A stretch of 64,000 nucleotides of DNA from Streptomyces sp. 11x1 (GTDB lineage: Bacteria; Actinomycetota; Actinomycetes; Streptomycetales; Streptomycetaceae). Each line of letters starts with the position of its first letter. The first letter of the stretch is position 1. The notes beneath the pieces were generated by a model. It was given only the letters and a program-made list of their open reading frames with translations, searched no databases and was not told the origin of the DNA. The position numbers and the translations under genes were made by a program. The stretch is from NCBI RefSeq assembly GCF_032598905.1, contig NZ_CP122458.1, positions 2,852,001-2,916,000 on the forward strand, in the 5' to 3' direction. This document shows positions 30,533-49,083 of this stretch, piece by piece.

Positions 30533-30546
30533 TCGAAGCGCTTCGA
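30533..30546. promoter_or_regulatory. LacI-family operator, perfect palindrome TCGAAGCGCTTCGA
   Basis: This 14-bp perfect palindrome with the central CG typical of LacI-family sites lies 109 bases before the lacI-type start. A -10-like TAATAAT abuts it at 30527-30533. Identical sites occur at 48876-48889 and 49070-49083. Confidence 0.85.
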
Positions 30547-30623
30547 CAACCTATGGACACCCACCCACCGCCGAGCTACTGTCGAGCCACCCCCACTCGC
30601 TTTCGTTCAAAGCTAGCGCGCTG

Positions 30624-30637
30624 TCGAAGCGCTTAAA
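30624..30637. promoter_or_regulatory. Imperfect second LacI-type operator (TCGAAGCGCTTAAA)
   Basis: The left half is identical to the perfect operator; the right half diverges in the last three bases. It lies 18 bases before the lacI-type start codon and could support autoregulation by looping with 30533-30546. Confidence 0.65.
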
Positions 30638-30654
30638 CACCCTTGGAGAGCTGG

Positions 30655-31668
30655 ATGGTCACCCTCGCCGAGGTCGCCCAGCACGCCGGAGTCTCGGCGA
30701 GCACGGTGAGCTACGTCCTCAGCGGCAAGCGGTCCATCTCCGCCGGCACCCGGCAGCGGGTCGAGCGGAGCATCCAGGAGCTCGGCTACCACCCGAACGC
30801 GGGGGCCCGCGCCCTGGCGAGCAACAGGTCGAACATCGTCGCCCTGATGGTCCCGCTGCGTACCGACATGTACGTCCCGGTGATGATGGAGATCGCCATC
30901 GCGGTGGCCACCACGGCGCGTACGTACGGCTACGACGTGCTGCTGCTCACCGGCGAGGAGGGCCCGGACGCGGTGCGTCGGGTCACGGGCAGCGGTCTCG
31001 CCGACGCGATGATCCTGATGGACGTGGAGCTCGACGACGAGCGGCTGCCGCTGCTGCGCGACACCGACCAGCCCTCCGTACTCATCGGGCTGCCCGCCGA
31101 CACCAACGGTCTGACCTGCGTCGACCTCGACTTCGGGGCGACGGGCGCGCTGTGCGTGGAGCATCTGGCGATGCTCGGCCACCGCGACATCGCCGTCATC
31201 GGCGAGGCCCCCGCGGTGTACGAGCGGCACACCGGTTTCGCCGAGCGCACCCTCGACGGACTGCGGTCCCGCGCGCGGGAGTTGGGCCTGCGTGTGCTGC
31301 ACCGGCCCTGCGAGGGCGGCTACGACGCGATGTCCGCCACCCTGGCCCGGATCTTCGACGAACGGCCCGGCACCACAGGGATCGTCGTGCAGAACGAGTC
31401 CGCCGTGGAGCCACTGCTCGCGCTGCTGCGGCAGCAGGGGCGCGCGGTGCCGGAGGACGTCTCGGTGATCGCGGTCTGCCCGGACCAGGTCGCCGTACAG
31501 GCATCGGTGCGGCTGACCTCCGTGGCCATCCCCGCCCAGGAGATGGGCCGCCGGGCTGTGGAACAGCTGATCGCCAAGCTGGAGGGCCGGGACACCGACG
31601 AAGTGGTGCTCCTCGCCCCCGAGTTGACGGTCCGCGCGAGCACGGGGCCACTGTCCCCCACCAGCTGA
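30655..31668 (+). CDS. LacI family transcriptional regulator of the glycan locus
   Basis: The ATG at 30655 has GGAG six bases upstream; a TTG at 30643 is the alternative start. The 337-residue protein has the LacI headpiece VTLAEVAQHAGVSASTVSYVLSGKRSISAGTRQRVERSI with hinge helix GARALASNRS, then a periplasmic-binding-protein-like sensor domain (VLIGLPADTNGLTCVDLDFGATGALCVEHLAMLGHRDIAVIG). Its own promoter carries the TCGAAGCGCTTCGA palindrome, also found twice before the distant sugar-importer/GH3 pair. It most likely represses these and the GH31 gene 87 bases downstream until an imported oligosaccharide binds; this is inference from site sharing. The inducer is unknown. Confidence 0.92.
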   Translation: MVTLAEVAQHAGVSASTVSYVLSGKRSISAGTRQRVERSIQELGYHPNAGARALASNRSNIVALMVPLRTDMYVPVMMEIAIAVATTARTYGYDVLLLTGEEGPDAVRRVTGSGLADAMILMDVELDDERLPLLRDTDQPSVLIGLPADTNGLTCVDLDFGATGALCVEHLAMLGHRDIAVIGEAPAVYERHTGFAERTLDGLRSRARELGLRVLHRPCEGGYDAMSATLARIFDERPGTTGIVVQNESAVEPLLALLRQQGRAVPEDVSVIAVCPDQVAVQASVRLTSVAIPAQEMGRRAVEQLIAKLEGRDTDEVVLLAPELTVRASTGPLSPTS

Positions 31669-31755
31669 GCCGACGGCGTACGCGAGCCGGGGCCGTACGC
31701 GGGCCACCGCCCGCCTCGATTCCTTCCTTCACTCCTCCCTTCCAGGAGACCTCAC

Positions 31756-33807
31756 GTGAATCAGCCTGCCGAGAACCAGACCCCGACGGGTGCGGTCAGC
31801 CTCGCCCAGTCCTCACCCACCGTCGGCACGTTCCGTGAGCGGGACGGTGCCCTGGAGTGGAGCGGACGTCAGGAGACCCTGCGGATCGAGCCCTGGGGCC
31901 CGGACGCGGTCCGGGTCCGGGCCCGCCTCGGCGGCCCGGTGCTCGACGGGCTGCCGGGCGCCCTGCTCGACGAGCCGGAGTCCACCGAGAGCAGCGTCAA
32001 GATCGAGGACGGGCTCGGGCGGCTGACCGTCGGCGCGCTCACCGTCGAGGTGAACGCGGAGGGCTTGGTCCGTTACAGCCGCACGGCCGACGGGAGCGAG
32101 CTGCTGTCGGAGGCCCGCGCCCACTTCTGGTGGCCCGGCCCGCGCCTCTACACGGCCGTCGGCAACGGGTACCACCGCCTGGAGCAGCGGTTCGCCGCGT
32201 ACGACGACGAGAAGCTGTACGGCCTCGGGCAGCACCAGCACGGGCGGCTCGACCAGAAGGGGCTGGTCCTCGACCTGGTGCAGCGCAACGCGGAGGTCGG
32301 CATCCCGGTGCTGACCTCCAGCCGGGGCTACACCCTGCTGTGGAACAACCCGGCGATCGGCCGTGTCGAGCTGGCCGGCAACGGCACCCGCTGGGTCGCG
32401 GACTCGGCCCGGCAGATCGACTACTGGATCACCGCGGGCGATCCGGCCGACGCGCAGCGCCGCTACAGCGCGGCGACGGGCCGTACGCCGATGCTGCCCG
32501 AGTGGGCGGCCGGGTTCTGGCAGTGCAAGCTGCGCTACCGCACGCAGGACGAACTCCTCGCGGTGGCACGGGAGTACAAGCGGCGGGGCCTGCCCATCGA
32601 CGTCATCGTGTGCGACTTCTTCCACTGGACGCATCTGGGCGAGTGGAAGTTCGACCTCGACGAGTGGCCCGATCCGGCGGCCATGGTGCGGGAGCTGGAC
32701 GAGCTGGGCATCAAGCTGGTGGTGTCCGTGTGGCCGTCGGTGTCGCCGCTGAGCGAGAACCACCCTGTGATGGAGCAGCGCGGGTACTTCATCGGGACGC
32801 AGTACGGCCCGATGGCGCACGCCGACTGGCCGGACAAGGAGGTCGCGTCGACCGTCCAGGTGGCCTTCTACGACGCGACGAACCCCGAGGCCCGTGAGTT
32901 CGTGTGGTCGCGGGTGAAGGAGAACTACCTGGACCGGTACGGCATCGACGCGTTCTGGCTGGACGCCTGCGAGCCGGAGCTCAAGCCGGGTTTCCAGGAG
33001 AACCTGCGCTATTGGGCCGGGCCCGGCCTGGAGGTCGGCAACATCTATCCGGCCGAGAGCGCGCGCACCTTCTACGAGGGGCTGCGGGCGGCCGGCCGGG
33101 AGGAGATCGTCTCCCTCAACCGGTCGGCGTGGGCGGGCAGTCAGCGGTGGGGGGCCGCGCTGTGGTCCGGTGACATCGGCACGGACCTCCCGACCCTGCG
33201 GCGGCAGATCGCGGCGGGGCTCAACACGGCGTTGTCGGGCATCCCGTGGTGGAACACGGACATCGGCGGCTTCCACGGGGGCGACCCCGACGATCCGGCG
33301 TACCGCGAGGTGATGGTCCGCTGGTTCCAGTTCGGGGCGTTCTCGCCGTTGATGCGACTGCACGGGTTCCGGGAGCCCGGGATGCCGCTGGGGCCGGACA
33401 TGACCGGCGGACCCAACGAGGTGTGGTCGTACGGGGAGGAGGCCGGGGCGATCCTGGAGGCCTACCTGCGGCTGCGGGAGCGGTTGAAGCCGTATGTGCT
33501 GCGGGTGATGCGGGAGGCCCACGAGGAGGGGCTGCCGGTGATGCGGCCGCTGTTCCTGGAGTTCCCCGAGGACGAGCGGGCCTGGTCCGTGGACGACGCG
33601 TATCTGTTCGGGCGGGATGTGCTGGTGGCGCCGGTGCTGGAGGCGGGGGCGAGGGTCTGGACGACCTACCTTCCGGCGGGGGCGCGGTGGACGGACGCGT
33701 GGACCGGGGAGACGTACGAGGGGGGTGCGACCGTTACCGTCGACGCGCCGCTGGAGCGGATCCCGGTGTTCCTGCGGGACGGGGTGGCCCTGCCGATCGC
33801 CGAGTAG
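31756..33807 (+). CDS. GH31 alpha-xylosidase/alpha-glucosidase-like enzyme
   Basis: The GTG start has AGGAG seven bases upstream; the product is 683 residues with no signal peptide, so cytoplasmic. An N-terminal beta-sandwich (residues ~20-250) precedes the (beta/alpha)8 barrel. The GH31 nucleophile signature FWLDACEPE gives Asp403 and the acid/base motif WSGDIGTD gives Asp473, spaced much like E. coli YicI. YGLGQHQHGRLDQKG and SPLMRLHGFREP are further family blocks. YicI-like GH31 enzymes remove alpha-1,6-xylose from xyloglucan oligosaccharides; the nearby GH74, GH42 and GH3 genes favour that over alpha-glucosidase, but sequence alone does not settle it. It lies downstream of the lacI-type gene on the same strand. 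Confidence 0.88.
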   Translation: MNQPAENQTPTGAVSLAQSSPTVGTFRERDGALEWSGRQETLRIEPWGPDAVRVRARLGGPVLDGLPGALLDEPESTESSVKIEDGLGRLTVGALTVEVNAEGLVRYSRTADGSELLSEARAHFWWPGPRLYTAVGNGYHRLEQRFAAYDDEKLYGLGQHQHGRLDQKGLVLDLVQRNAEVGIPVLTSSRGYTLLWNNPAIGRVELAGNGTRWVADSARQIDYWITAGDPADAQRRYSAATGRTPMLPEWAAGFWQCKLRYRTQDELLAVAREYKRRGLPIDVIVCDFFHWTHLGEWKFDLDEWPDPAAMVRELDELGIKLVVSVWPSVSPLSENHPVMEQRGYFIGTQYGPMAHADWPDKEVASTVQVAFYDATNPEAREFVWSRVKENYLDRYGIDAFWLDACEPELKPGFQENLRYWAGPGLEVGNIYPAESARTFYEGLRAAGREEIVSLNRSAWAGSQRWGAALWSGDIGTDLPTLRRQIAAGLNTALSGIPWWNTDIGGFHGGDPDDPAYREVMVRWFQFGAFSPLMRLHGFREPGMPLGPDMTGGPNEVWSYGEEAGAILEAYLRLRERLKPYVLRVMREAHEEGLPVMRPLFLEFPEDERAWSVDDAYLFGRDVLVAPVLEAGARVWTTYLPAGARWTDAWTGETYEGGATVTVDAPLERIPVFLRDGVALPIAE

Positions 33808-33940
33808 GCCCGCGACGCGGTGACGTGGCAGGGGTCTCCCGGCACGCGGGGCGTTCGTCGGCCGGGTCTACGCTATGGCGCCACGGCCATCCCATGATCC
33901 TCAGGGGGTGTGCGCGACCTCCGAGTGAGTGGAGATGACA

Positions 33941-35173: not shown

Positions 35174-35210
35174 CCGGGGGTGAGCGTCCCGGTGGGGCGG
35201 ACATGACGTG

Positions 35211-35245
35211 ACGGTTCCGGGGCCCGTGCGGGGCCCCGGAACCGT
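35211..35245 (+). terminator. Perfect 15-bp hairpin after the AI-2E-type gene
   Basis: The arms at 35211-35225 and 35231-35245 (ACGGTTCCGGGGCCC) with a 5-nt loop start 38 bases after the stop codon. It separates the transporter from the sulfotransferase gene. Confidence 0.88.
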
Positions 35246-35355
35246 CCGCGGGCGCACGGCGACATGTTCCGGGGACCACTCCCCGTTTATGCTGGGGTCC
35301 CAGCCGGTCCGACGCGACGCGTGCCGTCCGTCGCTCTCCCGGAAAGGACACGCCC

Positions 35356-36543: not shown

Positions 36544-36551
36544 CGTGCGAA

Positions 36552-36589: not shown

Positions 36590-36614
36590 CACAGACGCCC
36601 CTGCTCCGGAGGCC

Positions 36615-39185
36615 CTAGCCGACGACCCGGCCCACCTCGATCCGGTCGATGTTCGGCGCCCAGGCGCTCGCATTGCCGAAGGTCACCTTGTTGGGCCCCT
36701 TCCCCAGGTCGACGGGGACGCCCACGCTCCAGTAGTCGTCCCAGCCCCAGGTGTTCTTGAAGGTGACCGTGCGCGGCTCACCGTCCCCGACCGTGATGTC
36801 CGCCGTGCGGGACATGATGTCGGTGTTGTAGGCGTGGCCGTTGTCGCGGCGGTCGTTGTGGGCGTAGTGGACGACCAGGACGTACCGGCCGGCGGTGGGG
36901 GCGTCCACCGTGAACTCGGCGGTGGAGTCCGCGCCGTTGCCGAGCCATCCGATGTACGAACCGGCCGAGGCGTGGGCGGAGTCGACGAGCTCGGCCCCGC
37001 CGGCGAGGGTGGCCGTGGCGCCGTCGTACGCCAGGGTGCCGGTGGTCGAACCCGCGCCCGTGACGTCGAGGGAGCGCACGGCCGTGTGCCTGGCGGTCGC
37101 GGTGATCCGGTTGTTGCCCGCGACCAGGTAGAGCCGCAGTGGCCGGTCGGGCACCGCCGCCACCGACTGCCCGTGCAGGGCGAGCCGCACCGGCGCCGAC
37201 GCCCGGGGCACCACCCGGTAGTAGCCGTCGTGCGGGGCGTACACGTCGAAGACCGCCTTGTCCCCGGAGCCCAGCACGAGCGCGCCGGTGCCGACGCCGG
37301 CCGAGGAGGAGTAGTCGTACGACGGCTTACCGCTGATGTCCGCGAGTGTGGCCTCGTAGGAGGCGGCGGGCTCGCCGGTGCGGGCGGTGAGGTCGATCCG
37401 GTCGAGGGTGACCTCGGTGTCGCCCTTGGCGAGGGTCAGTCGATGGGTGCCCGCCGTGAGCCGGACGGTGAGGTCCTTCTTGGCGCGATAGGTCCAGTTC
37501 TCGGTGGAGGGGTAGGTGACCGTGACCGGTTCGCCGCCGTCGACGGTCAGCTTCTGGGTGGCCGGGGTCCCGGACTGGTTGCCGTAGAGGATCGCCAGGT
37601 CGTACGTGCCGTTCTCGGGGACGGAGACGGTGAAGTCGACCTTGCTGGTGGGCTGGTTGAGGGAGCCGACGTCCTTGGTGCCGGAGGCTGCGTAGCCGTT
37701 GGCGTTGGCGACGGTGCCCTGGGTGTAGACCTTGCCGTCGGTGATCGCGGCGTCCTCGGCCTCGTAGGAGGCGCTCCAGGGGACGGCGGGCATGGTCGGG
37801 GTGCCGGTGCCGCCCGGGGTCAGGACGACACGGTAGGCCGACATCTTGTGCAGGCCGCGCAGCGGGACGGTGACCGTGCCGTCGTCCGCGATCCGCACCT
37901 TCGTGCGGGACAGGACGCGCGGGGCTGCGTGCTGTCCCTCGTAGCCGGACCAGGCGGCCTCGGAGACGGTCGCGGTGACCGTGCGCCCGAAGAGGGACCG
38001 GGGGACCTTCTGGACCACGACGTCCGCGTCGCCGGCGGAGCCGCCGAGCAGGACCTGGGACTGACGGCGGGAGGTGTCGAGGGAGGCGAGGCCCTGGAGG
38101 GTGTCGATGGTGTTCGCGCGCGGCGGGGTGACCTTGACGGTGTTCCCGGTCAGACCCGCGTACCAGCGGAAGAACCACCAGCCGCCGTTGGGGATGTTGG
38201 AGCGGACGACGTTGCCGTCCATGTTGCCGGCCGCGTCCCAGTAGGCCTGGTTGGCGTACACCTTGTTGCGCTCGAACATCGAGACCCACTGGACGAGTTG
38301 ACCCGGGACGGAGAGGTCGCGGCGGTTGGCGTACTCGTCGATGTTGATCTTCAGGGGGGTTACGCCCGCCGCCCGCTCCAGTGCGCGGTAGTCGTCGTAG
38401 TGCCCCTGGAAGTCGCGGAGCGAGCCCGAACTCAGTTCGTGCCAGGTCATCACCTGCGGCAGGACGTTCTCGCGCTTGGCGAAGGCGAGGAAGTCCCGCA
38501 GCAGGCGTGTGTGGTAGCCGGCCTCGTTGGGGCCGGCGATGCGCGCGTCGGGGTCGATCGCGCGGATGCGCTCGTGGACCGTCTTCCAGTCCCGGAAGAA
38601 CCGGTCGCGGTTGATCTCGTACTGGGCCTGGTCGGCGACGTCGAGCTTGTACCAGATCTGGTCGGGCTCGTTGAACGGGATGTAGACGAAGCGGTCGCTG
38701 TCGGGGTCGGCCGAGACCTGCTTGACGATCTTGTCGACCTTGGGGAGGTAGTCGTCGATGCCGAGGTCCTCGTACGGCCACTTGGCGTAGATGTCCTGCA
38801 TCATCACGTTGATCTCGCCGCCGCCGTTGCGGAAGAACGACTTGGAGACGGTGAGCGCGTCGCCGTTGGGGTGCTGGGCGCCGCCCTCCGGCTTCTGCGA
38901 GATGCTGGTGATCTTCAGCGGGGCGAGGGCCGCGTCGCTGGGCACCCCGTCGTCGCTGAGCCCGTACAGCGCGCCGTTGGCGCCGTGCATCACCGGGCCC
39001 TCGGAGGCGGAGAGGTCGACGGTGAGGCGCTGCGGATCGGCGGCCGCGGCGGCGGCCGGTCCGGTGGCGGGGAGGGTGCTGCCTGCCATGACGGTGACTC
39101 CAAGTAGTGCTGTGACCAGGGCGGTTCTCGTTCGGGACCTGGTGCGGTGCTGGCTGCGGGCTCTCGTGCGGGTGGGCGTGATCAC
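36615..39185 (-). CDS. Secreted clan GH-A-like glycoside hydrolase with CBM35-type modules
   Basis: The start is chosen at the GTG at 39185, preceded by GGAGG at 9-nt spacing; a longer frame (39218) lacks this. An Arg-rich signal peptide ends near residue 45 (GPAAAAAADPQ). The catalytic part (~50-460) looks like a TIM barrel with FNEPDQIWY (acid/base candidate Glu173) and INIDEYANR (nucleophile candidate Glu284), a spacing of 111 residues typical of clan GH-A. The C-terminal 390 residues contain two or three beta-sandwiches, the first opening SASYEAEDAAITDGK, as in CBM35/CBM6. I cannot place it in a numbered GH family with confidence; GH39-like is the nearest guess. It begins 16 bases after the remains of a sugar permease gene, so it once sat at the end of a transporter operon. 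Confidence 0.8.
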   Translation of the reverse strand: MITPTRTRARSQHRTRSRTRTALVTALLGVTVMAGSTLPATGPAAAAAADPQRLTVDLSASEGPVMHGANGALYGLSDDGVPSDAALAPLKITSISQKPEGGAQHPNGDALTVSKSFFRNGGGEINVMMQDIYAKWPYEDLGIDDYLPKVDKIVKQVSADPDSDRFVYIPFNEPDQIWYKLDVADQAQYEINRDRFFRDWKTVHERIRAIDPDARIAGPNEAGYHTRLLRDFLAFAKRENVLPQVMTWHELSSGSLRDFQGHYDDYRALERAAGVTPLKINIDEYANRRDLSVPGQLVQWVSMFERNKVYANQAYWDAAGNMDGNVVRSNIPNGGWWFFRWYAGLTGNTVKVTPPRANTIDTLQGLASLDTSRRQSQVLLGGSAGDADVVVQKVPRSLFGRTVTATVSEAAWSGYEGQHAAPRVLSRTKVRIADDGTVTVPLRGLHKMSAYRVVLTPGGTGTPTMPAVPWSASYEAEDAAITDGKVYTQGTVANANGYAASGTKDVGSLNQPTSKVDFTVSVPENGTYDLAILYGNQSGTPATQKLTVDGGEPVTVTYPSTENWTYRAKKDLTVRLTAGTHRLTLAKGDTEVTLDRIDLTARTGEPAASYEATLADISGKPSYDYSSSAGVGTGALVLGSGDKAVFDVYAPHDGYYRVVPRASAPVRLALHGQSVAAVPDRPLRLYLVAGNNRITATARHTAVRSLDVTGAGSTTGTLAYDGATATLAGGAELVDSAHASAGSYIGWLGNGADSTAEFTVDAPTAGRYVLVVHYAHNDRRDNGHAYNTDIMSRTADITVGDGEPRTVTFKNTWGWDDYWSVGVPVDLGKGPNKVTFGNASAWAPNIDRIEVGRVVG

Positions 39186-39201
39186 GCGGCTGGACCTCCG
39201 G

Positions 39202-39276
39202 TCATTTGACGGCTCCACTGGTGATTCCGGACACGATCTTTCGCCGGCCGACGAGAAAGACGGCGATCATCGGCAG
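39202..39276 (-). pseudogene. 3' remnant of a carbohydrate ABC transporter permease gene
   Basis: The last ~24 codons read LPMIAVFLVGRRKIVSGITS then GAVK and a TGA, the standard C-terminus of MalG-type sugar permeases (LPMI..FLV.R..I.SGIT.GAVK). Upstream of 39276 the similarity stops abruptly and the opposite-strand GH36-like tail begins. The rest of the gene is absent. Its stop is 16 bases before the start of the CBM35/GH gene, preserving the old operon spacing. Confidence 0.75.
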
Positions 39277-39570: not shown

Positions 39571-39577
39571 GAGGACC

Positions 39578-39662: not shown

Positions 39663-40388
39663 TCAGCTGCTGCTGACCGTCAGGTTGTTGGTGACGAAGT
39701 CCAGGCCGCCGGAGGACGAGGTGACCTCGAAGCCGAACTGGACGTCACCGATGGTCTCGTTGCCCATCCAGCCCTTGGTGTCCTTGATCCACTTGAGAAT
39801 GGGGAGGATCTGGACCGTGCCGGAGTTCGAGTCCGAGGTGCGCAGGAAGGAGAACACCTCGTTGGCCCCGTTGCTGCCCTTGTAGACGCTCCAGGTGTGG
39901 CCGCCGAGCGTGGCGTTGCCCTGCGCGCTGCCGAGCGGACCGACGGCTCCGTTGTAGTTGACCCAGAGCATGATCTCGTAGTCGTAGTCCGTGTCCCAGA
40001 TGTCGTACGACGAGTTGTACGCGCCCGACGACGGGACCGTGACGTTGTAGCTGCTGTTGAGCGAGCCGAGCGAGGTGATCGTCTTGTTGATCACCTTCTT
40101 GGTGTTGGGGTACGACTTGATGCCGCCGGTGTTGGGGTGGTTGGCCCAGACTCCCCAGTTGGTACCGGAGTTGGCCCAGATGCACTGGCTGCCGGCTCCG
40201 GAGCCCCAGATGTTGTTGTAGAGCGTGTAGCCGTTGAGGCTGGTGTTGCCCCACTGGTCGCACGAGTTCCAGACTGCGGCCGAGGCGGGGGCGGCGGCGA
40301 GGCCGATCGTGGCGCCGAGCGCGAGCGCGGGGGCGAGCAGGACCTTGCCGATCCGGCCCAGGGTGCGGGTGCGGGTGCGTAGTGCCAT
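39663..40388 (-). CDS. Secreted GH12 endoglucanase / xyloglucanase
   Basis: The 241-residue protein has a signal peptide ending ...GLAAAPASAA near residue 38 and consists of a single GH12 jelly-roll catalytic domain without a carbohydrate-binding module. The family nucleophile lies in YDYEIMLWVNY (Glu138) and the acid/base in VQFGFEVTSSSGG (Glu221). The N-terminal WNSCDQWGNTSLNGYTLYNNIWG is typical of actinobacterial GH12. GH12 enzymes cleave beta-1,4-glucan, many preferring xyloglucan. It lies between the GH42 gene (152-base gap) and the alpha-galactosidase remnant; no LacI-type operator was seen just upstream. Confidence 0.93.
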   Translation of the reverse strand: MALRTRTRTLGRIGKVLLAPALALGATIGLAAAPASAAVWNSCDQWGNTSLNGYTLYNNIWGSGAGSQCIWANSGTNWGVWANHPNTGGIKSYPNTKKVINKTITSLGSLNSSYNVTVPSSGAYNSSYDIWDTDYDYEIMLWVNYNGAVGPLGSAQGNATLGGHTWSVYKGSNGANEVFSFLRTSDSNSGTVQILPILKWIKDTKGWMGNETIGDVQFGFEVTSSSGGLDFVTNNLTVSSS

Positions 40389-40540: not shown

Positions 40541-42535
40541 TCACGGCTTCAGTACCGCCACGCCGTGCCGGCCGAGCGAGAGCGACCCGGTGACGGTCGC
40601 CCCCGTCAGCAGGTCGCGATGGGTACCGGGCACGTCGACGGTGACCTCGTCGCGGCCGTGGTTGAGCACGAACAGCAGGTCGCCGCGGAGCACCGCCTCG
40701 ACCCCGCCGGGCAGTCCGTCCAGCACGGGCCGTACCCCGGCGTCGGCGGCGATCCGCCCCAGCAGGGCCCGCAGTTCGGCCGGTTCGGGCAGCGTGGAGA
40801 CGTACCAGACCCGCCCCTTCCGCAGCACCGCCGGGAGGCCGTCGAGTTCGCCGCCCTTGTAGGGGACGACCTGCTCCGCGTCCTCCGGCTCGATCTCCTC
40901 GGACCACAGTGTTCCCCGGAAGACGCCCCGGGCGCCGTCGCACTCGACCTCCTCCCCCGGGTCCAGCGGCCACCACTCGTGCAGGGTGCGGATGCCGAAG
41001 AGGTCGCGGAGCCGGGCGTCCATGCCGCCGGGGCGCACCCGGTCGTCCTCGTCGGCGACACCGGTCAGAAAGCCGCTGACGAGGGTGCCTCCGCCCCGGA
41101 CGTACGCGCGGAGGTTGTCCACGGCGGCGTCCGTGAGCAGGTAGAGCTGCGGTACGACGACGAGCCGGTGGGCGGAGAGATCGTGCTCGGGGTGGGCGAA
41201 GGCCGTGGTGAGGTTGGCCTCCCAGAGCGCGCGGTGCCAGGCGCCCACGACCTGCGGGAGATCGACCTCGGACGACAGGCGGCCGTCATGGGCACCGGCC
41301 CACCAGGAGTTCCAGTCGAACAGCACAGCGATGTCCGCCTGAATGCGCCGGCCCGTCACCTCGCTGCCGATGGCCGCGAGTTCCTGTCCGAGCTGCTTCA
41401 CCTCCTGGTAGGTGCGGCCCTGCTCGCCCGCGTGAGAGACCATGCCCGAGTGGAACTTCTCCGCGCCCTGCCGGGACTGCCGCCACTGGAAGTAGCAGAC
41501 GGCGTCCGCGCCCCGGGCCACGGCCTGGAAGGACCACAGGCGGTTGAGCCCGCGGGGTTTGGGGTGGTTGACACCGCGCCAGTTGACGGGTCCGGCCGCC
41601 TGCTCCATCAGCATCCAGGGGCCGCCACCCGCCTGGGAGCGGGTCATGTCCTGGACCAGGGCGCCGTTCTGCGCGCCGAGCGGGTCACGCGGATCCGGGT
41701 AGAGGTCGACCGAGACGACGTCCTCCTCCTCGGCCCACCGCCAGGCGTCCTGCCCCACCCACATCGGCATGAAATTGGTGGTGACCGGCAGGTGGGGGGT
41801 GTGCCGGCGGACGATGTCGCGCTCCATGACGTAGCACTCCAGGAGCATGTCGCTCGTGAAGCGTTTGAAGTCGAGCACATGGGCGGGGTTGCGCAGGTAG
41901 TGGGCCCGGCGCGGCGGGAGGATCTCGTGCCAGCCGTCGTAGCCCTGGCTCCAGAAGGCGGTGCCCCAGGCCTCGCCCAGCGCTTCGAGCGTGCCGTACT
42001 TCCGCCGCAGCCACGCCCGGAAGGTGCGGGCCGCCTCGTCGCCCCAGTCGTAGGTGCAGTACTCGTTGTTGATGTGCCACATCGTGAGGGCCGGGTGGTC
42101 GGCGTAGCGGGCGGCGAGATCCTCGGTGATGGCTGCGGCGTGACGCCGGTAGATTTCGCTGGAGTGGGAGAAGTGCTGGCGGGAGCCCCACCACTCGATG
42201 CGGCCGTCCTCGTCGCGCGGGAGGGTCTCGGGGTACAGGCGCCCCATCCACGGCGGCGGGGAGGAGGTGGGGGTGGCGAGGACGACGCCGATCCCGCTCG
42301 CGCGCATCAGGTCCATCAGCCGGTCCAGCCAGCCGAACTCTCGTGCCCCGGGCCTGGGTTCGAGCTTCGCCCAGGAGAAGACACCGAGGGTGACGGAGTT
42401 GACGCCCGCCTCCCGCATCAGGCGTACGTCTTCATGCCACACCTCCTCGGGCCACTGCTCGGGGTTGTAGTCGCCGCCGAAGAGGATGCGGCCACGGGTG
42501 GCGTCGGCCAGGGACGGTCCCGTCGGTCCCGGCAT
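40541..42535 (-). CDS. GH42 beta-galactosidase
   Basis: The 664-residue cytoplasmic enzyme has the GH42 opening GGDYNPEQWPEEVWHEDVRLMREAGVN, acid/base Glu158 in MWHINNEYC and nucleophile Glu311 in WMLMEQAAGPVNW. The barrel is followed by trimerisation (VLFDWNSWWAGAHDGRLSS) and beta-sandwich domains, the usual GH42 length. In this context it would remove galactose caps from imported xyloglucan oligosaccharides, though beta-1,4-galactan or arabinogalactan fragments are also possible substrates. Its ATG overlaps the GH74 stop (TGATG), so the two are translationally coupled. Confidence 0.93.
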   Translation of the reverse strand: MPGPTGPSLADATRGRILFGGDYNPEQWPEEVWHEDVRLMREAGVNSVTLGVFSWAKLEPRPGAREFGWLDRLMDLMRASGIGVVLATPTSSPPPWMGRLYPETLPRDEDGRIEWWGSRQHFSHSSEIYRRHAAAITEDLAARYADHPALTMWHINNEYCTYDWGDEAARTFRAWLRRKYGTLEALGEAWGTAFWSQGYDGWHEILPPRRAHYLRNPAHVLDFKRFTSDMLLECYVMERDIVRRHTPHLPVTTNFMPMWVGQDAWRWAEEEDVVSVDLYPDPRDPLGAQNGALVQDMTRSQAGGGPWMLMEQAAGPVNWRGVNHPKPRGLNRLWSFQAVARGADAVCYFQWRQSRQGAEKFHSGMVSHAGEQGRTYQEVKQLGQELAAIGSEVTGRRIQADIAVLFDWNSWWAGAHDGRLSSEVDLPQVVGAWHRALWEANLTTAFAHPEHDLSAHRLVVVPQLYLLTDAAVDNLRAYVRGGGTLVSGFLTGVADEDDRVRPGGMDARLRDLFGIRTLHEWWPLDPGEEVECDGARGVFRGTLWSEEIEPEDAEQVVPYKGGELDGLPAVLRKGRVWYVSTLPEPAELRALLGRIAADAGVRPVLDGLPGGVEAVLRGDLLFVLNHGRDEVTVDVPGTHRDLLTGATVTGSLSLGRHGVAVLKP

Positions 42536-44763
42536 CAGGTCGGCTCCCCGTACTGGATGCCGCGCCCGTTGGTGGCCAGGTACACACGGCCGTAGACGCG
42601 CGGGTCGCCGACGATGACCTCACCGGTCCAGCCCCACTGGTGGGCGTCGTCGTTGATCCGGGTCCAGGTCTTCGCGGCGTCGTCGGAGCGGTGGACGACG
42701 GTGCGGGTCTCCGTCGAGCCGACCTGGTAGATCGCCGGGTAGCCGGCGCCCGGGGCCGCCTTGCCGAAGCCGAGGGTGTACGAGGCCCGGCAACTGTCGA
42801 CCTTCGAGAAGGCCGCCCCCGCGTCGGTGGACCGGTACAGCCCGCTCGTCTTCGCACTCAGCCACAGGTCACTGGTGCGTCTGGGGGCCGCGACCAGCTT
42901 GAACTGGCTGTCCCCCGCGGGCAGTCCGGTGGCCCGGGCCGAGAAGGAGGCACCGCTGTCCGTGCTCGCGTACAGCGTCCCCGTGTCGGTGTCGTAGGCG
43001 TAGAAGCGCGCGGGGTCGACCGGGTCGGCAACCGGCGTGGCGCCCTTGGGGAAGGTGGGGACCTCGGCCCAGGTCGCGCCGTTGTCGGTGGAGCGGTGGG
43101 CCGCGTACTTCGTGCCGTCCCAGTGCACGAAGGACCACACCAGCACGCTGCCGTCGGCGTTCACGGCGATCGGTCCCGGCGCGTCCTTCGCGATGTCGGG
43201 CTGGGCCCCGAAGGGCTCCCAGGTCCGGCCGCCGTCGTTCGAGCGGGCGCCGTTGCCGTGGTCGCCCCAGCCGGTGCGGACCACGTACGACGGCTTCGCC
43301 GCGGCCTGCGCGAGTCCGGTCGCCGATCCGAACACGGGGTTCGACGCCATGCCGCGCGACGGGGAGGCGGTGAGCCGCTCGTGGTACATCGTGCCGATGT
43401 CCCCGCTGCCGCTGATCAGGTGCGCCTGCCCGGTCGGGGGCGAGATCAGCTGGCGTACGGACGTCTCCTCCAGGCCCCTGATCTGCGGGGCCCAGTTCTT
43501 CAGGTCCCGGGTGCCGTAGAGGGTCGCACCGGTGCCGTAGACCATGTGCTTCGAGTCGTACGGGTCGAGGGCGAGCGCCTGGATCCACCAGCCGAACTTC
43601 GGCTTGTCGGCGCCCCACTTGAGATAGGGGGTCTCGGACACGTCGAGGACGGCGGAGTCCTTGAGAGACGTCCAGGTGCGGCCGCCGTTCGTGGACCGGA
43701 ACAGGGTGTCGATCTCCGCCCAGCGGTTGTTGGTGGACACGACCACCGTGCCCGGGCGGCGGGCGTCGACGGCGACTCCGCCGTAGCCGAAGGCGTCGGT
43801 GCCGCCGTCGGTCGTGGTGCCGCCCGGCTTCACGGGGGTCACTTCGGACCATGTGCCGGTGGTGGTGCGGAGCTTGTGCACACTGCCGTCCGACTGGCCG
43901 TTGGGGCCGGGGGCGTTCGCGTACGTCACGTACAGCTCGCGGGTGTGCCGGTCGTAGGCGGCTCGGATCGGGACCTTGGCGGCGGCGCCGGTCGGGCTGC
44001 CGGGGACGGTTTCCCAGGTGGTGCCGTCGCCGGTGCGGTAGAGGTTCGCCGTCGCGGAGGTGTCGTCGGCGTCCCCCCAGCCGGCGTACACGGTGCGGCC
44101 GGCGGCCACGAGCAGGGTGACGCCCTGGCCGGAGGCGCTCGGGGTCGCCGGGAAGCCGGTCGCGGACGCCCAGGTGGCGCCCCGGTCCGTCGACCTGAGC
44201 AGACCGTCGTGCCGGGTGCCCAGCCACAGGGTGTCGCTGTCGCGGGGGTCGACGAGCAGGCGCTCCCCCGTGCCCCGGCCGTCCTCGTTGGCGCCGAGCT
44301 TCACGGTCAGGTCGCTGCGGGTCCAGGTGGCGCCGCGGTCGTCGGAGCGCAGGATCGCGCCGTTGCCGGCCCAGGGCTGGGTGTAGGTGCCGAGGGCGAG
44401 GTAGACGCGGTCCGGGTGGGCGGGGTCGAGGGCGATGGCCTCCACGCCGAGGAGGTTCCAGTCGTCCCAGCCGAGGTGGTCGGTCAACGGGGTCCAGCGG
44501 GCCTTGTGGTCGTCCCAGCGGTAGGCGCCGCCGATGTCGGTGCGGGCGTAGGCGAGACCGCGTCTCGCGGGGTGGAAGAGGACGCCGCTGACGAAGCCGG
44601 TGCCGCCGATCACGGCGTTGCGCCACCGGTAGCCTCCGGCGGTCGAGCCGCTTCGAGCCTCGGTGGCGTGGGCCTGGGCTGTCAGTGCGGGGAGGGTGGT
44701 GAGGGCCGCGGCGGCCGCGGTCCCGGCGAGTACGGTTCGGCGGGTTGGGTGGGGGGTGCGCAT
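42535..44763 (-). CDS. Secreted GH74 xyloglucanase-like enzyme
   Basis: The start at 44763 has GAGG six bases upstream and begins MRTPHPTRRTVLAGTAAAAAL, a Tat-like signal peptide. The mature ~705 residues form two seven-bladed propellers marked by BNR/Asp-box repeats (SDDRGATWTRSD, STDRGATWASA, STNGGRTWTSL, STDNGATWAEV). The catalytic Asp candidates are Asp76 in ARTDIGGAYRWD and Asp455 in GSGDIGTMYHE, matching the two conserved acids of GH74. GH74 enzymes are endo- or reducing-end-acting xyloglucanases. No CBM is attached. It heads a two-gene unit with GH42 and follows the sugar permease after 262 bases. Confidence 0.92.
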   Translation of the reverse strand: MRTPHPTRRTVLAGTAAAAALTTLPALTAQAHATEARSGSTAGGYRWRNAVIGGTGFVSGVLFHPARRGLAYARTDIGGAYRWDDHKARWTPLTDHLGWDDWNLLGVEAIALDPAHPDRVYLALGTYTQPWAGNGAILRSDDRGATWTRSDLTVKLGANEDGRGTGERLLVDPRDSDTLWLGTRHDGLLRSTDRGATWASATGFPATPSASGQGVTLLVAAGRTVYAGWGDADDTSATANLYRTGDGTTWETVPGSPTGAAAKVPIRAAYDRHTRELYVTYANAPGPNGQSDGSVHKLRTTTGTWSEVTPVKPGGTTTDGGTDAFGYGGVAVDARRPGTVVVSTNNRWAEIDTLFRSTNGGRTWTSLKDSAVLDVSETPYLKWGADKPKFGWWIQALALDPYDSKHMVYGTGATLYGTRDLKNWAPQIRGLEETSVRQLISPPTGQAHLISGSGDIGTMYHERLTASPSRGMASNPVFGSATGLAQAAAKPSYVVRTGWGDHGNGARSNDGGRTWEPFGAQPDIAKDAPGPIAVNADGSVLVWSFVHWDGTKYAAHRSTDNGATWAEVPTFPKGATPVADPVDPARFYAYDTDTGTLYASTDSGASFSARATGLPAGDSQFKLVAAPRRTSDLWLSAKTSGLYRSTDAGAAFSKVDSCRASYTLGFGKAAPGAGYPAIYQVGSTETRTVVHRSDDAAKTWTRINDDAHQWGWTGEVIVGDPRVYGRVYLATNGRGIQYGEPT

Positions 44764-44892
44764 GACATACCTCGTCTTGTACGGGGGGGGTGGGGGTGGG
44801 CGGAGCGCCACGAGCTTGAAGATTCGGGTGGGTGGAGTGCCGCGAGCTCGGGGGTTCGGGGTGCGTGGGCGGCTGCGGTGGTTCGTGGCTGG

Positions 44893-44964
44893 TCGCGCAG
44901 TTCCCCGCGCCCCCAAAGACTCCGGGCGAGCCCCATGCGCCCAGGGGCGCGGGGAACTGCGCGA
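44893..44964. repeat. Inverted pair of the dispersed repeat, 21-bp arms
   Basis: Two copies of the 22-base repeat face each other: the arms at 44893-44913 and 44944-44964 are exact reverse complements separated by 30 bases. They lie between the importer operon and the GH74 gene and could act as the importer operon terminator. Confidence 0.8.
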
Positions 44965-45025
44965 GAAGCCCCACGCACCCGCAGCCGCCCACGCACCCGA
45001 ACCCCCGAGCTGTCAGGCGCCCCTG

Positions 45026-45988
45026 TCAGCCCTTGATCGCGCCGGTCAGCATGCCCTTCTTGAAGTGCTTCTGGACGAAGGGCGAGAGCACCGCGACCGG
45101 CAGCAGGGCCATCACCATGACCGCCATCTGGATGGCCAGCCCGGACAGCTGACCGGTCCTGATCGCCTGGCTCAGTCCGACCGGCGCTTCCTGCTTCTGA
45201 ACGAGCTGGATCATGACGTTCTGCAACGGCATCATGTCCTGTTCGTTCAGGTAGATCGACGCGTTGAACCAGGCGCTCCAGTACCCGACGGCGTAGAACA
45301 GCGTGATCACGGCGAGGACCGCCCGGGACAGCGGCATGACGATCTGCCAGAGGATCCGGACGTCACCGGCGCCGTCGATGCGCGCGCTGTCGATGAGTTC
45401 CTGCGATACCCCCATGAAGAAGCCGCGCAGCACGAGGATGTTGAAGATGCTCACCGCGCTCGGCAGGATCAGCGCGAGATAGGTGTCCATCAGTCCGAGG
45501 GACTGCACCAGCAGGTAGGTGGGGATGAGCCCCGCGCTGAAGAACATCGTCGCCAGCAGCATCATCAGGATCCAGCGGTGCCCGAAGGATCCGCTGCGCG
45601 ACAGGCCGTAGGCGCACAGGACGGACACCGCCATGGAGAACAGGGTGCCGACCAGGGTGATGAGAATGCTGATGATCGCGGCGCGGGTGACCTGACCGCC
45701 GCTGAGCAGCTCCTCGTAGGCGATGAAGGTGATGCCCTTGGGCACGATCACCAGGCCGCCCGCCTCGTCGATGGTCTTGCGGGACGACAGACTGGTGACG
45801 ACCACGATCCACAGTGGGAAGAGGACCGCCAGACAGGCGAACGACAGGGCGATCCCCTTGCCCGCCAGGCCGGCCTTCGAGGGCTCCTCCTCCCAGGCCG
45901 GTCGGGGCGGGGCCTGCCACCAGCGGGGTGTCCTCTCCCGCCGGTCCGGCTCGGTGTCCTGGCGCGGGCGCGCCATCACGGACGTCAT
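45026..45988 (-). CDS. Carbohydrate ABC transporter permease (LplC/MalG type)
   Basis: The 320-residue inner-membrane protein has about six transmembrane helices after a 40-residue cytoplasmic N-terminus, and the permease EAA-like loop ELIDSARIDGAGDVRILWQIVMPLSRAVLAVI, which docks to the ATPase. It belongs to the LplC/YtcP branch (YWSAWFNASIYL, QNVMIQLVQ). The start overlaps the preceding permease stop by 4 bases. With its partners it imports an oligosaccharide. No ATPase gene is present; Streptomyces sugar importers commonly share MsiK, encoded elsewhere. Confidence 0.92.
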   Translation of the reverse strand: MTSVMARPRQDTEPDRRERTPRWWQAPPRPAWEEEPSKAGLAGKGIALSFACLAVLFPLWIVVVTSLSSRKTIDEAGGLVIVPKGITFIAYEELLSGGQVTRAAIISILITLVGTLFSMAVSVLCAYGLSRSGSFGHRWILMMLLATMFFSAGLIPTYLLVQSLGLMDTYLALILPSAVSIFNILVLRGFFMGVSQELIDSARIDGAGDVRILWQIVMPLSRAVLAVITLFYAVGYWSAWFNASIYLNEQDMMPLQNVMIQLVQKQEAPVGLSQAIRTGQLSGLAIQMAVMVMALLPVAVLSPFVQKHFKKGMLTGAIKG

Positions 45989-47019
45989 TTCTTGTACACC
46001 CCCTGCTCGCCCATGAGATGGGCCACCTTGTTGGCGGCGAGCACCAGGCCGATGCTGACCACGCCCTTGACGAGGCCGGCGGCGGCCGCGTAGCCGAAGT
46101 CCTGGTTGCGTACGCCGTTCCACCACACGAAGGTGTCGAGGACCTCCCCCGCGCCCGGTCCGACGCCGTCGCGTTGCAGCAGGATCTGTTCGAACCCGAC
46201 GGTCAGGGCGTCGCCGACGCGCAGGACGAGCAGAAGGGCGATCACCGGACGCAGGGCGGGAAGCGTGACGTGCCACATCCGGCGCCATCGTCCGGCACCG
46301 TCCATCGCGGCGGCCTCGTAGTGGTCCGAGGGCACCGAGGCCAGCGCGGCGAGGAAGACGATGATCCCCCACCCGGCGTCCTTCCACACGCTCTGCGCGG
46401 TGATCAGGAACGGGAAGGTGTCCGGGTTGGTCATGATGTCGAGGCCGTCGTAGCCGTTCTGCCGCAGCAACTGGGACAGCATCCCGGCGCCGCCGAACAT
46501 CTGCTGGAAGACGGCGATGACGAGCACCCAGGAGAAGAAGTGCGGCAGGTAGAGCACGGCCTGGGCGACAGCCCGCACCCGGGGCCGGATCACGCTGTTG
46601 ATGAGCAGCGCGAGCAGGATCGGGATCGGGAAGAACAGCACGAGCTGGACGAGGAACAGCACCAGCGTGTTCTCGACGGCGTTCCAGAAGGCCGAGTCCT
46701 CGAAGATCCTTTGGAAGTTCTCCAAACCCACGAAGGGGCTGTTCAGCATGGACACGATGCCGTTGTCGCTGATGTAGGGGTCGTAGTCCTGGAAGGCGAC
46801 CACATTGCCGAGCACCGGCAGGTAGTTGAAGACCAGGACCAGCACGACGGCCGGCAGCGTCATCAGGAGCAGAACCCGGTCGCGTCGGAACCTGAGCCGC
46901 AGGCTCAGCTTCTCCGGGGGGCGTTTCTCGGGGGAGCCGGTGGTGCCGCCGGACGTCACCCGGGTCTTCACCGGCGTGCTGGCCTCGGTCTCGCTGCGAG
47001 GCACCGTGCTGTGGGACAC
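45985..47019 (-). CDS. Carbohydrate ABC transporter permease (LplB type)
   Basis: The 344-residue permease starts at a GTG with AAGGAGAG upstream. After a basic cytoplasmic leader it has about six membrane helices (VLLLMTLPAVVLVLVFNYLPVLG...) and the docking loop DHYEAAAMDGAGRWRRMWHVTLPALRP. DYDPYISDNGIVSM and FVGLENFQRIFED are typical of the LplB class that works with very large binding proteins. It is the middle gene of a three-gene importer operon, 27 bases after the binding-protein gene and overlapping the next permease by 4 bases. Confidence 0.93.
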   Translation of the reverse strand: MSHSTVPRSETEASTPVKTRVTSGGTTGSPEKRPPEKLSLRLRFRRDRVLLLMTLPAVVLVLVFNYLPVLGNVVAFQDYDPYISDNGIVSMLNSPFVGLENFQRIFEDSAFWNAVENTLVLFLVQLVLFFPIPILLALLINSVIRPRVRAVAQAVLYLPHFFSWVLVIAVFQQMFGGAGMLSQLLRQNGYDGLDIMTNPDTFPFLITAQSVWKDAGWGIIVFLAALASVPSDHYEAAAMDGAGRWRRMWHVTLPALRPVIALLLVLRVGDALTVGFEQILLQRDGVGPGAGEVLDTFVWWNGVRNQDFGYAAAAGLVKGVVSIGLVLAANKVAHLMGEQGVYKK

Positions 47020-47046
47020 AGCCGCTCTCCTTGCCTCAGAGCCCGG

Positions 47047-48735
47047 TCAGCTCGCCGCCGAACCGTTCTCGTCGAGGAGCTTCTTGTACCAGTCGCGCAG
47101 CTTGTCGCCGCCCTTGCTCTTCCAGTCGGACACGGCCTGCTGCATGTCGCTGATCTTCTTGTGCCCGCGGATGATGTCGTCCTCGAGCTGCTCGAAGTCG
47201 TTGGCGAGGTTGGTGTAGCGGGAGGGCTCGGTGATCTGCAGGCCCCAGAAGGACGACTTCTTGGTGAAGGCGCCCATCCGCTGCTGCCATTCGACCTGGG
47301 CCTTGGTGTAGTCCGGGAGGTCGGGGTGCGCGATGGTCGGGGCAGGGCTCGCCACCATGACGTAGGCGTTGATGACCTCGTTGTTGCCCTTGTCGTTCTT
47401 GACGGGGACGCCGTCCTTGAGCGTGTAGTGGGTGCCCTCGACGCCGTAGTTGGTCATCATCCACTCCTTGGTGCCGTACGGCGCCGCGGTGACGTTGGCG
47501 ACCGCCAGCACGTCGCGGATGACGGACTCGGAGACCTTCTTGTTGACGAAGGCGAAGATGTTGGCCGGCATCGTGGCGTACAGCGTCGGGTCACCGCCGT
47601 CGTGGCCCCAGATGTCCATGCCCCAGACCCTGACGTCGGGGTTCTGGGTCGAGAAGGAGGCCTGGTGCCCGTACCAGCCGGACATGTCGGTGTTCCAGAT
47701 CAGGAACTCGCCGGCGGCGAACTTGGGTGTCGGGTCGGCGATCTGACTCTTGCCCAGCTTGAAGTTGGGGTGGACGACTCCGGCGGCGAACAACTTCCGC
47801 GTCCACTCGATGGCTTCAAGGTACTCCGGGGTCTCGATACGGTTGATCAGCTTGCCGTCGACCAGGTTCCACCAGAGCGGCTTCTCACCGCCCCCGAGCA
47901 CGCCGAAGTTGCTGAACGCGGTCCACTTCATGTCACCGCAGGCCCACCGCTTGGCCCTGGGGTTGGTGATGTCCTTGCACAGGGCCATGAACTCGTCGGC
48001 GGACCGCGGGATTTCGTAGCCCTCCTTGTCGAAGATGTCCTGGCGGTAGAGCGGCACGATGTTCCCGACGTACCCGGCGGGCATCGGCAGGCCCATCAGC
48101 TTGCCGCCGAAGATGGAGCGCTGCCAGGCATCGCTGGGGATCGCCGCGAGGTTGGGATACTCCTTGACCTTGTCCCCGGACAGGTACGGGCCCAGGTCGG
48201 CGAACTTGCTGATGATGGCGCTGGGTATCTTGCCCATCATGTTCCAGCCGGGGATGACGACCACGTCCGGGACGTCGCTGGAGGCGAGGACCGCGCCGAG
48301 CTTCTGGTCGTAGGTGCCGCCGTCCTGGTTGCGCCACTGGACGTCGACGCCGATCAGGTCGTTCATCGACGTGTAGTAGGCGTTGTCCTGCTTGGGCGGC
48401 GAGCCCCAGAACGGCGACATGATGGTGACCTTGCCGCCCTTGCCGAGCTTCTTGGTGACCGACGTCCTGAGGTCGGCGCTGTCGAGCTTGGCGGTGAAGC
48501 CCATCGACGAGCCGTTCTTCGCCGGGATGTCCGGCTTCACCACGTCGCTCGCCACGTACGCCGGGAGGATCTTCTTGGCGTCCTTGCCCGACGTGGTGCC
48601 CTCGCGCGAGCCGCTGTCCGAGCCGCCGCAGGCGGACAGCAGCGGCAGCCCCCCGGCGACCGCTGCGGTGGCGACCGCCGTGGAAGCGAGGAAACTTCTC
48701 CGGCTCGGGGCGGGGGTGGCGGAGTTCGGCGTCAT
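47047..48735 (-). CDS. Extracellular solute-binding lipoprotein of sugar ABC importer (LplA type)
   Basis: The 562-residue protein begins with an Arg-containing signal (SRRSFLASTAVATAAVAGG) and lipobox LLSAC, so it is a lipid-anchored binding protein. Its size, well above the ~420 residues of malE-type proteins, and segments such as YPNLAAIPSDAWQRSIFGGKLMGLPMPAG place it with LplA/YtcQ-like oligosaccharide receptors. AAGGG precedes the ATG. It is the first gene of the importer operon. A -35/-10 pair at 48923-48928 / 48900-48905 and the LacI-type palindrome at 48876-48889 lie in its leader, so it should be repressed by the lacI-type protein of the locus. Confidence 0.93.
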   Translation of the reverse strand: MTPNSATPAPSRRSFLASTAVATAAVAGGLPLLSACGGSDSGSREGTTSGKDAKKILPAYVASDVVKPDIPAKNGSSMGFTAKLDSADLRTSVTKKLGKGGKVTIMSPFWGSPPKQDNAYYTSMNDLIGVDVQWRNQDGGTYDQKLGAVLASSDVPDVVVIPGWNMMGKIPSAIISKFADLGPYLSGDKVKEYPNLAAIPSDAWQRSIFGGKLMGLPMPAGYVGNIVPLYRQDIFDKEGYEIPRSADEFMALCKDITNPRAKRWACGDMKWTAFSNFGVLGGGEKPLWWNLVDGKLINRIETPEYLEAIEWTRKLFAAGVVHPNFKLGKSQIADPTPKFAAGEFLIWNTDMSGWYGHQASFSTQNPDVRVWGMDIWGHDGGDPTLYATMPANIFAFVNKKVSESVIRDVLAVANVTAAPYGTKEWMMTNYGVEGTHYTLKDGVPVKNDKGNNEVINAYVMVASPAPTIAHPDLPDYTKAQVEWQQRMGAFTKKSSFWGLQITEPSRYTNLANDFEQLEDDIIRGHKKISDMQQAVSDWKSKGGDKLRDWYKKLLDENGSAAS

Positions 48736-48875
48736 TGCGTCAACCCTTCATGGCGCACACCAGGACACCCGGCGGTGGCCGTCGGCTGCGGTGTCTGTGA
48801 GGAACTGGCTGTGCTGAAGCGGTGAACCCTCGAGCGACGGAGGGAGGTGAGCACGCGAAGCGTTGCCCTCCACAG

Positions 48876-48889
48876 TCGAAGCGCTTCGA
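48876..48889. promoter_or_regulatory. LacI-family operator before the importer operon
   Basis: This perfect TCGAAGCGCTTCGA palindrome lies about 10 bases downstream of the -10 box proposed for the importer operon, a position suited to blocking initiation. It is identical to the site before the lacI-type gene. Confidence 0.85.
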
Positions 48890-48899
48890 TGTTGCTGCG

Positions 48900-48928
48900 A
48901 GGTTAAGTGAACGACCGGGGGTGCACAA
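48900..48928 (-). promoter_or_regulatory. Candidate promoter of the sugar importer operon
   Basis: On the minus strand TTGTGC (48928-48923) and TAACCT (48905-48900) are spaced by exactly 17 bases, reading toward the binding-protein gene 165 bases away. The match to the principal-sigma consensus is moderate. Confidence 0.55.
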
Positions 48929-49040
48929 GGGTCGATTCCCAGATTCCTCGGCGGTGCGGCCGACCGGAACACCCCACTCCGACCTTCGTTGTCCCGGGCC
49001 GTATGTCGGTGCGGAAACGGATCTGTTGCGCCTCGATCTC

Positions 49041-49069
49041 TTGACACCCGCCCCACAGTCGAATGAGCA
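49041..49069 (+). promoter_or_regulatory. Candidate promoter of the GH3 gene
   Basis: TTGACA at 49041-49046 is followed 17 bases later by TGAGCA (49064-49069), a weak -10. The LacI-type palindrome starts at 49070, directly over the expected start of transcription. Confidence 0.55.
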
Positions 49070-49083
49070 TCGAAGCGCTTCGA
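49070..49083. promoter_or_regulatory. LacI-family operator before the GH3 gene
   Basis: This perfect TCGAAGCGCTTCGA palindrome lies 38 bases before the GH3 start codon. With 48876-48889 it forms a pair 194 bases apart in the divergent importer/GH3 region. Confidence 0.85.

Follow-up and report, generated by a model that had tools for sequence, protein, structure and literature searches.

Helically phased spacing of two operators in a probable LacI-controlled xyloglucan regulon of Streptomyces

We analysed 64,000 nucleotides of Streptomyces sp. 11x1 (contig NZ_CP122458.1, positions 2,852,001 to 2,916,000 of the forward strand; hereafter the window), in which the 14-bp palindrome TCGAAGCGCTTCGA is found at a gene for a LacI-family repressor (lacI), at the operon of a sugar importer and at a gene for a glycoside hydrolase (GH) of family 3. 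We consider it probable that the central part of a regulon for xyloglucan oligosaccharides lies in the window and is repressed by this LacI, with a DNA loop between the operators of the importer (O3) and GH3 (O4) spanning both divergent promoters. We computed sites, genes, conservation, co-occurrence and helical phasing. New here are the quantised spacing of the importer/GH3 operators, a LacI paralogue with a near-identical recognition helix and a copy of the palindrome inside a DHDPS-family gene. A search of open-access papers for the printed palindrome gave no match, and no paper on this regulon or its operator spacing was recognised from titles and abstracts among the open-access papers listed.

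The repressor gene and its two upstream operators are arranged as follows:

30533–30546, no strand: operator O1, a perfect palindrome 110 bp before the lacI TTG at 30643
30624–30637, no strand: operator O2, imperfect, just before lacI, with a perfect left half and a degenerate right end
30643–31668, plus strand: LacI-family repressor, 341 amino acids as listed, with Pfam domains PF00356 and PF13377

Both domains, the helix-turn-helix PF00356 and the periplasmic-binding-like sugar domain PF13377, scored above the cut-off, and by eye the more likely start of the protein is the ATG at 30655, not the TTG. We fetched 80 named lacI loci, which are the best 80 of 474 relatives and all from Streptomyces; S. 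caniscabiei, S. stelliscabiei, S. europaeiscabiei and S. scabiei are among the closest by LacI. A CG-centred even palindrome lies upstream of lacI in all 80. O1 is perfect in every one, at −106 to −124, and O2 keeps TCGAAGCGCTT with a degenerate right end throughout (TTCAC in 66 of the 80) and is perfect in none. Column identity to the window is 0.997 for O1 and 0.875 for O2, compared with 0.73 for the interval between them and 0.35 for the flank upstream of O1.

A scan of the window confirmed the three perfect sites named in an earlier, sequence-only reading (30533–30546, 48876–48889 and 49070–49083) and its imperfect site at 30624–30637, which has two mismatches. With up to three mismatches, the window holds 9 matches versus 3.96 expected, and 4 of 100 shuffles reach 9; matches this loose carry little weight, and it is the perfect copies that stand out. 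The genome-wide scan that the same reading had proposed (10.67 Mb) gave 8 perfect copies versus 0 for a reversed control, so that a chance origin was rejected. Copies with one mismatch showed no excess over the chance level (6 versus 5 in the control) and were rejected in bulk as regulon members. Rather than many unrelated copies, the scan placed six of the eight at loci for glycan breakdown, and another lies within an acetyl xylan esterase gene (AXE1). The three window sites are not the whole set: there are five further perfect copies, one of them at a second alpha-xylosidase locus, which also encodes a LacI. Nor is the distance of about 18 kb between the regulator and the second operator pair unusual, as had been claimed; in 11 chosen relatives with the same layout it ranges from 6.4 to 23.3 kb (one measured end being an imperfect site in three of them), and we rejected it as a special feature. 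Among the LacI loci of the genome itself, 2 of 30 examined (of 35 found) have the exact palindrome in a stretch of about 3 kb.

The palindrome and the repressor occur together. Across 150 genomes of the genus, the palindrome is found in 94 and LacI or its paralogue in 90 (matches at E ≤ 1e-60); all 90 of the latter carry the palindrome, versus 4 of the 60 with no such match. In these genomes the palindrome occurs 353 times and its reversed control 22 times (numbers copied by hand, as were those for the periodicity given below). In another family of the order, all 11 genomes with a LacI match (64–70% identical) hold at least four copies.

O3 and O4 lie between the divergent genes for the sugar-binding protein of the importer (SBP) and for GH3, with the following elements:

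48876–48889, no strand: operator O3, a perfect palindrome just downstream of the probable importer promoter
48900–48905, minus strand: probable importer −10 box, TAACCT, mostly conserved and at a fixed distance to O3 in 71 loci
48923–48928, minus strand: probable importer −35 box, TTGTGC, with a 17-bp spacer, from conservation across the 71 loci
49041–49046, plus strand: probable GH3 −35 box, TTGACA (TTGACAC mostly conserved), at a fixed distance to O4
49070–49083, no strand: operator O4, a perfect palindrome 51 bp before the GH3 start and 194 bp from O3

The −10 box of GH3 would abut or overlap O4. Promoters and operators form two rigid modules that face away from each other, and in the 71 loci the DNA between their −35 boxes varies in length. 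The middle of the intergenic region is poorly conserved in a 12-locus alignment, and an additional conserved block lies upstream of the importer −35 box. A terminator scan gave nothing useful. The operator pair itself is present in all 11 of the chosen relatives, with 21 of 22 sites perfect (O4 in all 11, O3 in 10 and with one mismatch in the remaining one); these relatives were picked by hand among genomes with palindromes or LacI matches and are those, of 14 genomes fetched, in which the intergenic region fell inside the fetched stretch.

A first hint of phasing came from the O3–O4 distances in 12 loci, which moved by apparent 11-bp steps. Searches of 392 genomes for pairs at every distance from 114 to 204 bp yielded at least 155 usable pairs (75, 74 and 6), one operator pair in an AXE1 gene having been excluded beforehand. 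The listed distances fall into classes of 123–126, 158–160, mostly 168–173, 180–183, 191–195 and 202–204 bp, that is, at about 126, 160, 171, 182, 194 and 202–204 bp, with stragglers at 155, 164, 166, 167 and 188 bp. None of the 155 listed pairs is at 161–163, 174–179, 184–187, 189–190 or 196–201 bp. The best period is 11.2 bp (R = 0.78), and when the classes were moved as blocks in a block-jitter null, 7 of 5000 sets reached the observed periodicity. Taken modulo 11, 144 listed pairs are distributed over the eleven phases as 0, 1, 2, 3, 14, 32, 70, 16, 6, 0 and 0; these are the 155 minus 11 pairs assigned by hand to a second locus, and because this removal takes out most off-class spacings, we rely on the 155. 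The 11 pairs are counted in R and in the null and are left out of the tree described below.

A few ancestral lengths copied through the tree could give a quantised spacing by an accident of descent, for there are few length classes, the species are related and gene transfer could move whole intergenic regions. We built a tree of binding-protein and GH3 fragments from 71 loci, namely 60 fetched regions, 10 earlier ones and the window; the fetched regions were the first in list order once the second-locus pairs and the loci already used had been left out, plus 3 of the 6 from the smallest pair list. The tree implies 42 length changes, 20 of 1–3 bp and 22 of at least 9 bp. Each of the 22 large changes (at least 5 bp) falls no more than 2 bp from a multiple of 11, for which the chance is 46% each. 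The spacing differs by 5 bp or more in nine of 24 sister pairs, every time to within 2 bp of a multiple of 11 (expected about 0.001). As a control, the adjacent distance from the SBP start to O3 in 69 of these loci is more variable (standard deviation 36 bp) and has no clear period (R at most 0.31). Given the block-moved classes, the sister pairs and this control, we regard an accident of descent as very improbable.

The quantised O3–O4 spacing seen across species is what would be expected if selection favoured a repression loop that spans the two divergent promoters. Looped repression involves two operators in phase, which the species comparison supports for O3 and O4 and leaves unclear for O1 and O2. 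That selection has kept O3 and O4 of a LacI with no evident tetramer tail on one helix face, while one, two or more turns were repeatedly gained or lost in many Streptomyces species, has in our judgement an even chance of being correct.

Because each probable promoter keeps a constant position relative to its operator, and it is the DNA separating the −35 boxes that changes in length, the phase data cannot separate contact between operators from contact between promoters. The regulon could be real and the 11-bp steps could come from an activator or nucleoid protein acting between the −35 boxes, or from contact of the divergent polymerases. This geometry, the conserved block upstream of the importer −35 box and a LacI without an obvious tetramer tail would all suit such an explanation; however, the middle stretch is poorly conserved, and for LacI-family pairs spaced by 22 and 32 bp, cooperative binding has been proposed before (PMC4052901). 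We find phasing without a loop unlikely, though it has to be taken seriously. Separately, perfect palindrome pairs in the other family of the order (G393, G394, G400, G403 and G405) are 66–121 bp apart, several at multiples of 11, and at least 12 listed pairs from these related genomes give R = 0.71–0.76 at 11–11.5 bp.

The second alpha-xylosidase locus, at 6.515 Mb, has a perfect copy and, 23 bp from it, a copy with a single mismatch, both ahead of a YicI-like GH31 gene; a LacI gene comes after the GH31 gene, and an MFS gene is adjacent (stretch L015, 5991–10847). The single-mismatch copy, one of the six in the genome, may be real. The LacI encoded here is a paralogue of the window LacI, 55% identical to it, and their recognition helices differ at one position. 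This closeness raises the alternative that the paralogue beside the YicI-like alpha-xylosidase shares the palindrome with the window LacI or is its main user, and that two repressors compete for it. In five of the 90 genomes with a LacI match, the best match is a 53–59% paralogue only, and these genomes carry 1–2 copies; perfect sites also adjoin paralogue loci in several of 20 stretches examined. However, G059, G081 and G093, in which the single LacI match is the 80–83% orthologue, hold 5, 3 and 4 palindromes, and we judge a joint or leading role of the paralogue to be distinctly unlikely.

At 7.7275 Mb, two perfect copies lie upstream of an apparent decayed copy of the importer operon (by eye; L016, 9534–15254), which is followed by an apparently intact GH74 gene and a GDSL-lectin gene. 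Another perfect copy (G000:C1:8351491) is inside a DHDPS-family gene (L017, 8810–9721) that is followed by dehydratase and permease genes. This copy is perfect in 22 of 93 orthologues and has one mismatch in 8 more. Grouped by repressor, the 22 perfect copies all fall among the 83 genomes that have a LacI match and none among the 10 that do not, and 53 of the 83 lack it even when one mismatch is allowed. It is spelled with rare codons, as CTT accounts for 1.1% of Leu and CGA for 1.3% of Arg elsewhere in these genes, and CTT-CGA is used at 0 of 210 other Leu-Arg pairs in DHDPS-family genes. The copy is possibly an operator within a coding sequence. The remaining perfect copy lies about 40 bp into the AXE1 gene (L018, 9797–9810). 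Among 30 loci tested from 88 genomes with a match, the AXE1 copy is perfect in 2, those of the genome itself and a close relative, and it was seen in one further species; we do not regard it as conserved widely.

The enzyme and importer genes of the cluster are:

31756–33807, plus strand: GH31, probable intracellular alpha-xylosidase, from a profile match and the solved relative MeXyl31
36615–39218, minus strand: secreted-looking accessory protein with a GH5/39-like N-terminal domain and CBM35-like modules, from domain and structure matches
39663–40388, minus strand: GH12 with a signal-like N-terminus (by eye), from Pfam and NCBIfam matches
40541–42535, minus strand: GH42 beta-galactosidase with no evident signal peptide (by eye), from a profile match
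42535–44763, minus strand: GH74 xyloglucanase with a twin-arginine-like signal, from xyloglucanase matches
45026–46000, minus strand: ABC permease 2, with PF00528 at the cut-off and the ATG near 45988 as a possible start
45985–47019, minus strand: ABC permease 1, with PF00528
47047–48735, minus strand: lipoprotein-like SBP of the importer, with PF13416
49121–51973, plus strand: GH3 with CBM6, broadly a beta-glycosidase, from domain and structure matches

These Pfam and structure matches bear out the gene content given in the sequence-only reading. Its proposal of a LacI-controlled xyloglucan regulon is supported by the comparative genomics and by the GH31 and GH74 matches; its 18-kb argument does not hold. 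The best solved relative of GH31 is the alpha-xylosidase MeXyl31 (691 bits). GH74 matches xyloglucanases with up to 493 bits; its match to the twin-arginine profile was below the cut-off, and its start is probably the ATG at 44763 (by eye). The nearest NCBIfam family of permease 2 is UgpE, also below the cut-off, and no close solved relative of SBP was found. The importer consists of the binding protein and two permeases, and an ATPase is absent among the annotated cluster genes. For GH3, the best solved relatives are beta-xylosidases (262 bits), the match to NCBIfam Xyl3A (444 bits) is below the cut-off of 1250, and no obvious signal peptide was seen by eye. The genes from SBP to the CBM35 protein are all on the minus strand, with O3 at their head and O4 before the divergent GH3 gene, and may form one long unit; the CBM35 protein is matched in only some of the 80 named loci (flanks there of at most 10 kb). 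By homology, genes for an endo-xyloglucanase, an alpha-xylosidase, a beta-galactosidase and oligosaccharide uptake are together at the locus. The palindrome most likely marks a LacI regulon with xyloglucan as the substrate, as judged from these gene families.

Several other features lie in or near the cluster. The interval from GH31 to the CBM35 gene also contains genes for an AI-2E-type membrane protein and a sulfotransferase, with no evident link to the cluster. Inverted repeats of the CGCGCAGTTCCCCGCGCCCC type separate permease 2 from GH74 (44860–44980), and the same words are found again near 28280 and 30450 (all by eye). A DDE-type transposase gene (26755–27846) lies near an acyl-CoA dehydrogenase gene.

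The true substrate might instead be another hemicellulose (xylan, galactomannan or arabinogalactan), with xyloglucan incidental. GH3 and the GH5/39-like protein have xylosidase-like relatives, a palindrome lies in an acetyl xylan esterase gene, and GH74 is unmatched in the clusters of some relatives. However, GH74 scores strongly with xyloglucanases and endoglucanases related to them, an alpha-xylosidase is by far the best match of GH31, and the second locus encodes a YicI-like GH31, which together make another substrate improbable.

Several observations weigh against a xyloglucan regulon repressed through a loop. The pair lists give at least 75 pairs for 101 genomes and at least 75 for 91 genomes, the spacing sample is related by descent, the tree is possibly distorted by gene transfer, and the 11 second-locus pairs are spread over 155–167 bp. 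The O4-to-GH3-start distance gives R = 0.56–0.76 at every period tested and is uninformative as a control because it is nearly constant (46 of 70 values at 49–51 bp). A sigma-70 scan turned up no consensus promoter and had no match at the proposed importer and GH3 boxes. The O1–O2 spacing is 88–93 bp in 73 loci and 101–103 bp in 7, classes about 12 bp apart that are not clearly in phase. By eye in the alignment, the LacI C-terminus has no leucine-repeat tail, the tetramer tail of E. coli LacI. GH3 is closer to beta-xylosidases than to isoprimeverose-producing enzymes. Finally, four genomes of the order have no LacI match listed; two of them hold no copies, and the other two hold 2 and 3.

Our model of the looped xyloglucan regulon, in which DNA binding, repression, the inducer, the loop and the contacts between proteins that would close it are all inferred, takes substrate and inducer from the enzyme families. 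Secreted GH74 and GH12 would cut xyloglucan, the importer would take up the oligosaccharides, presumably powered by a shared ATPase encoded elsewhere, such as the MsiK of other Streptomyces, and inside the cell GH31, GH42 and GH3 would strip xylose, galactose and the backbone. A dimer of the LacI-family protein would bind TCGAAGCGCTTCGA at O1/O2 (its own promoter), O3 (the importer-GH74-GH42-GH12 unit) and O4 (GH3), and a putative xyloglucan-derived sugar would release it. With O3 and O4 just after the two divergent promoters and the dimers on the same helix face, a loop of about 126–204 bp would shut both promoters together, so that importer and GH3 would be silenced together and released together.

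The analysis offers a concrete xyloglucan regulon for Streptomyces with its operator code, and evidence from evolution rather than engineering that a LacI-family repressor may depend on DNA looping. If the loop exists, the spacing histogram is a natural record of it and of the helical repeat inside living Streptomyces cells, and half-turn insertions should break the joint repression of importer and GH3, whereas full-turn insertions should not. In that case the regulon may also draw on an operator within a gene and have one operator served by two repressors. How such regulons grow is a question raised both by the sharing of the operator with a LacI paralogue and by the in-gene copy with its rare codons.

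Among known systems, E. coli LacI and GalR form loops with two operators in helical phase across promoters; here, in contrast, the phase comes from species comparison and a tetramer tail is not evident. Xyloglucan import and catabolism genes of Ruminiclostridium cellulolyticum are reportedly controlled by XygS/XygR, which is a two-component activator, unlike the LacI repressor proposed here. The second palindrome locus resembles YicI in its GH31 (965 bits) beside an MFS transporter gene and differs in that this GH31 adjoins a paralogue of the window LacI. MsiK is the shared importer ATPase of other Streptomyces. The CelR/CebR site is TGGGAGCGCTCCCA, with other targets, whereas here the outer bases are TCGAA, the genes are xyloglucan-like and all 80 lacI loci carry TCGAAGCGCTTCGA rather than that operator. 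The CebR/CelR regulons, as described in PMC3377646, are alike in having a LacI-family repressor and a perfect palindrome at several hydrolase and importer operons. BxlR, also of the LacI family, has the motif CGAA-Nx-TTCG, which fits the core CGAAGCGCTTCG of the window palindrome; PMC12772271, which reports this motif, also names MsiK. In a comparison by description, BxlR goes with bxlEFG and bxlA, whereas the set here is GH31, GH74, GH12, GH42 and GH3; an importer and a GH3 gene are linked here, but the remaining linked genes look xyloglucan-related. A precedent for the spacing comes from Ravcheev et al. 2014 (PMC4052901), where neighbouring LacI-family sites lie 22 and 32 bp apart, in helix steps, and this is taken as a sign of cooperative binding; here the distances are 126–204 bp, and one orthologous site pair is tracked through many species.

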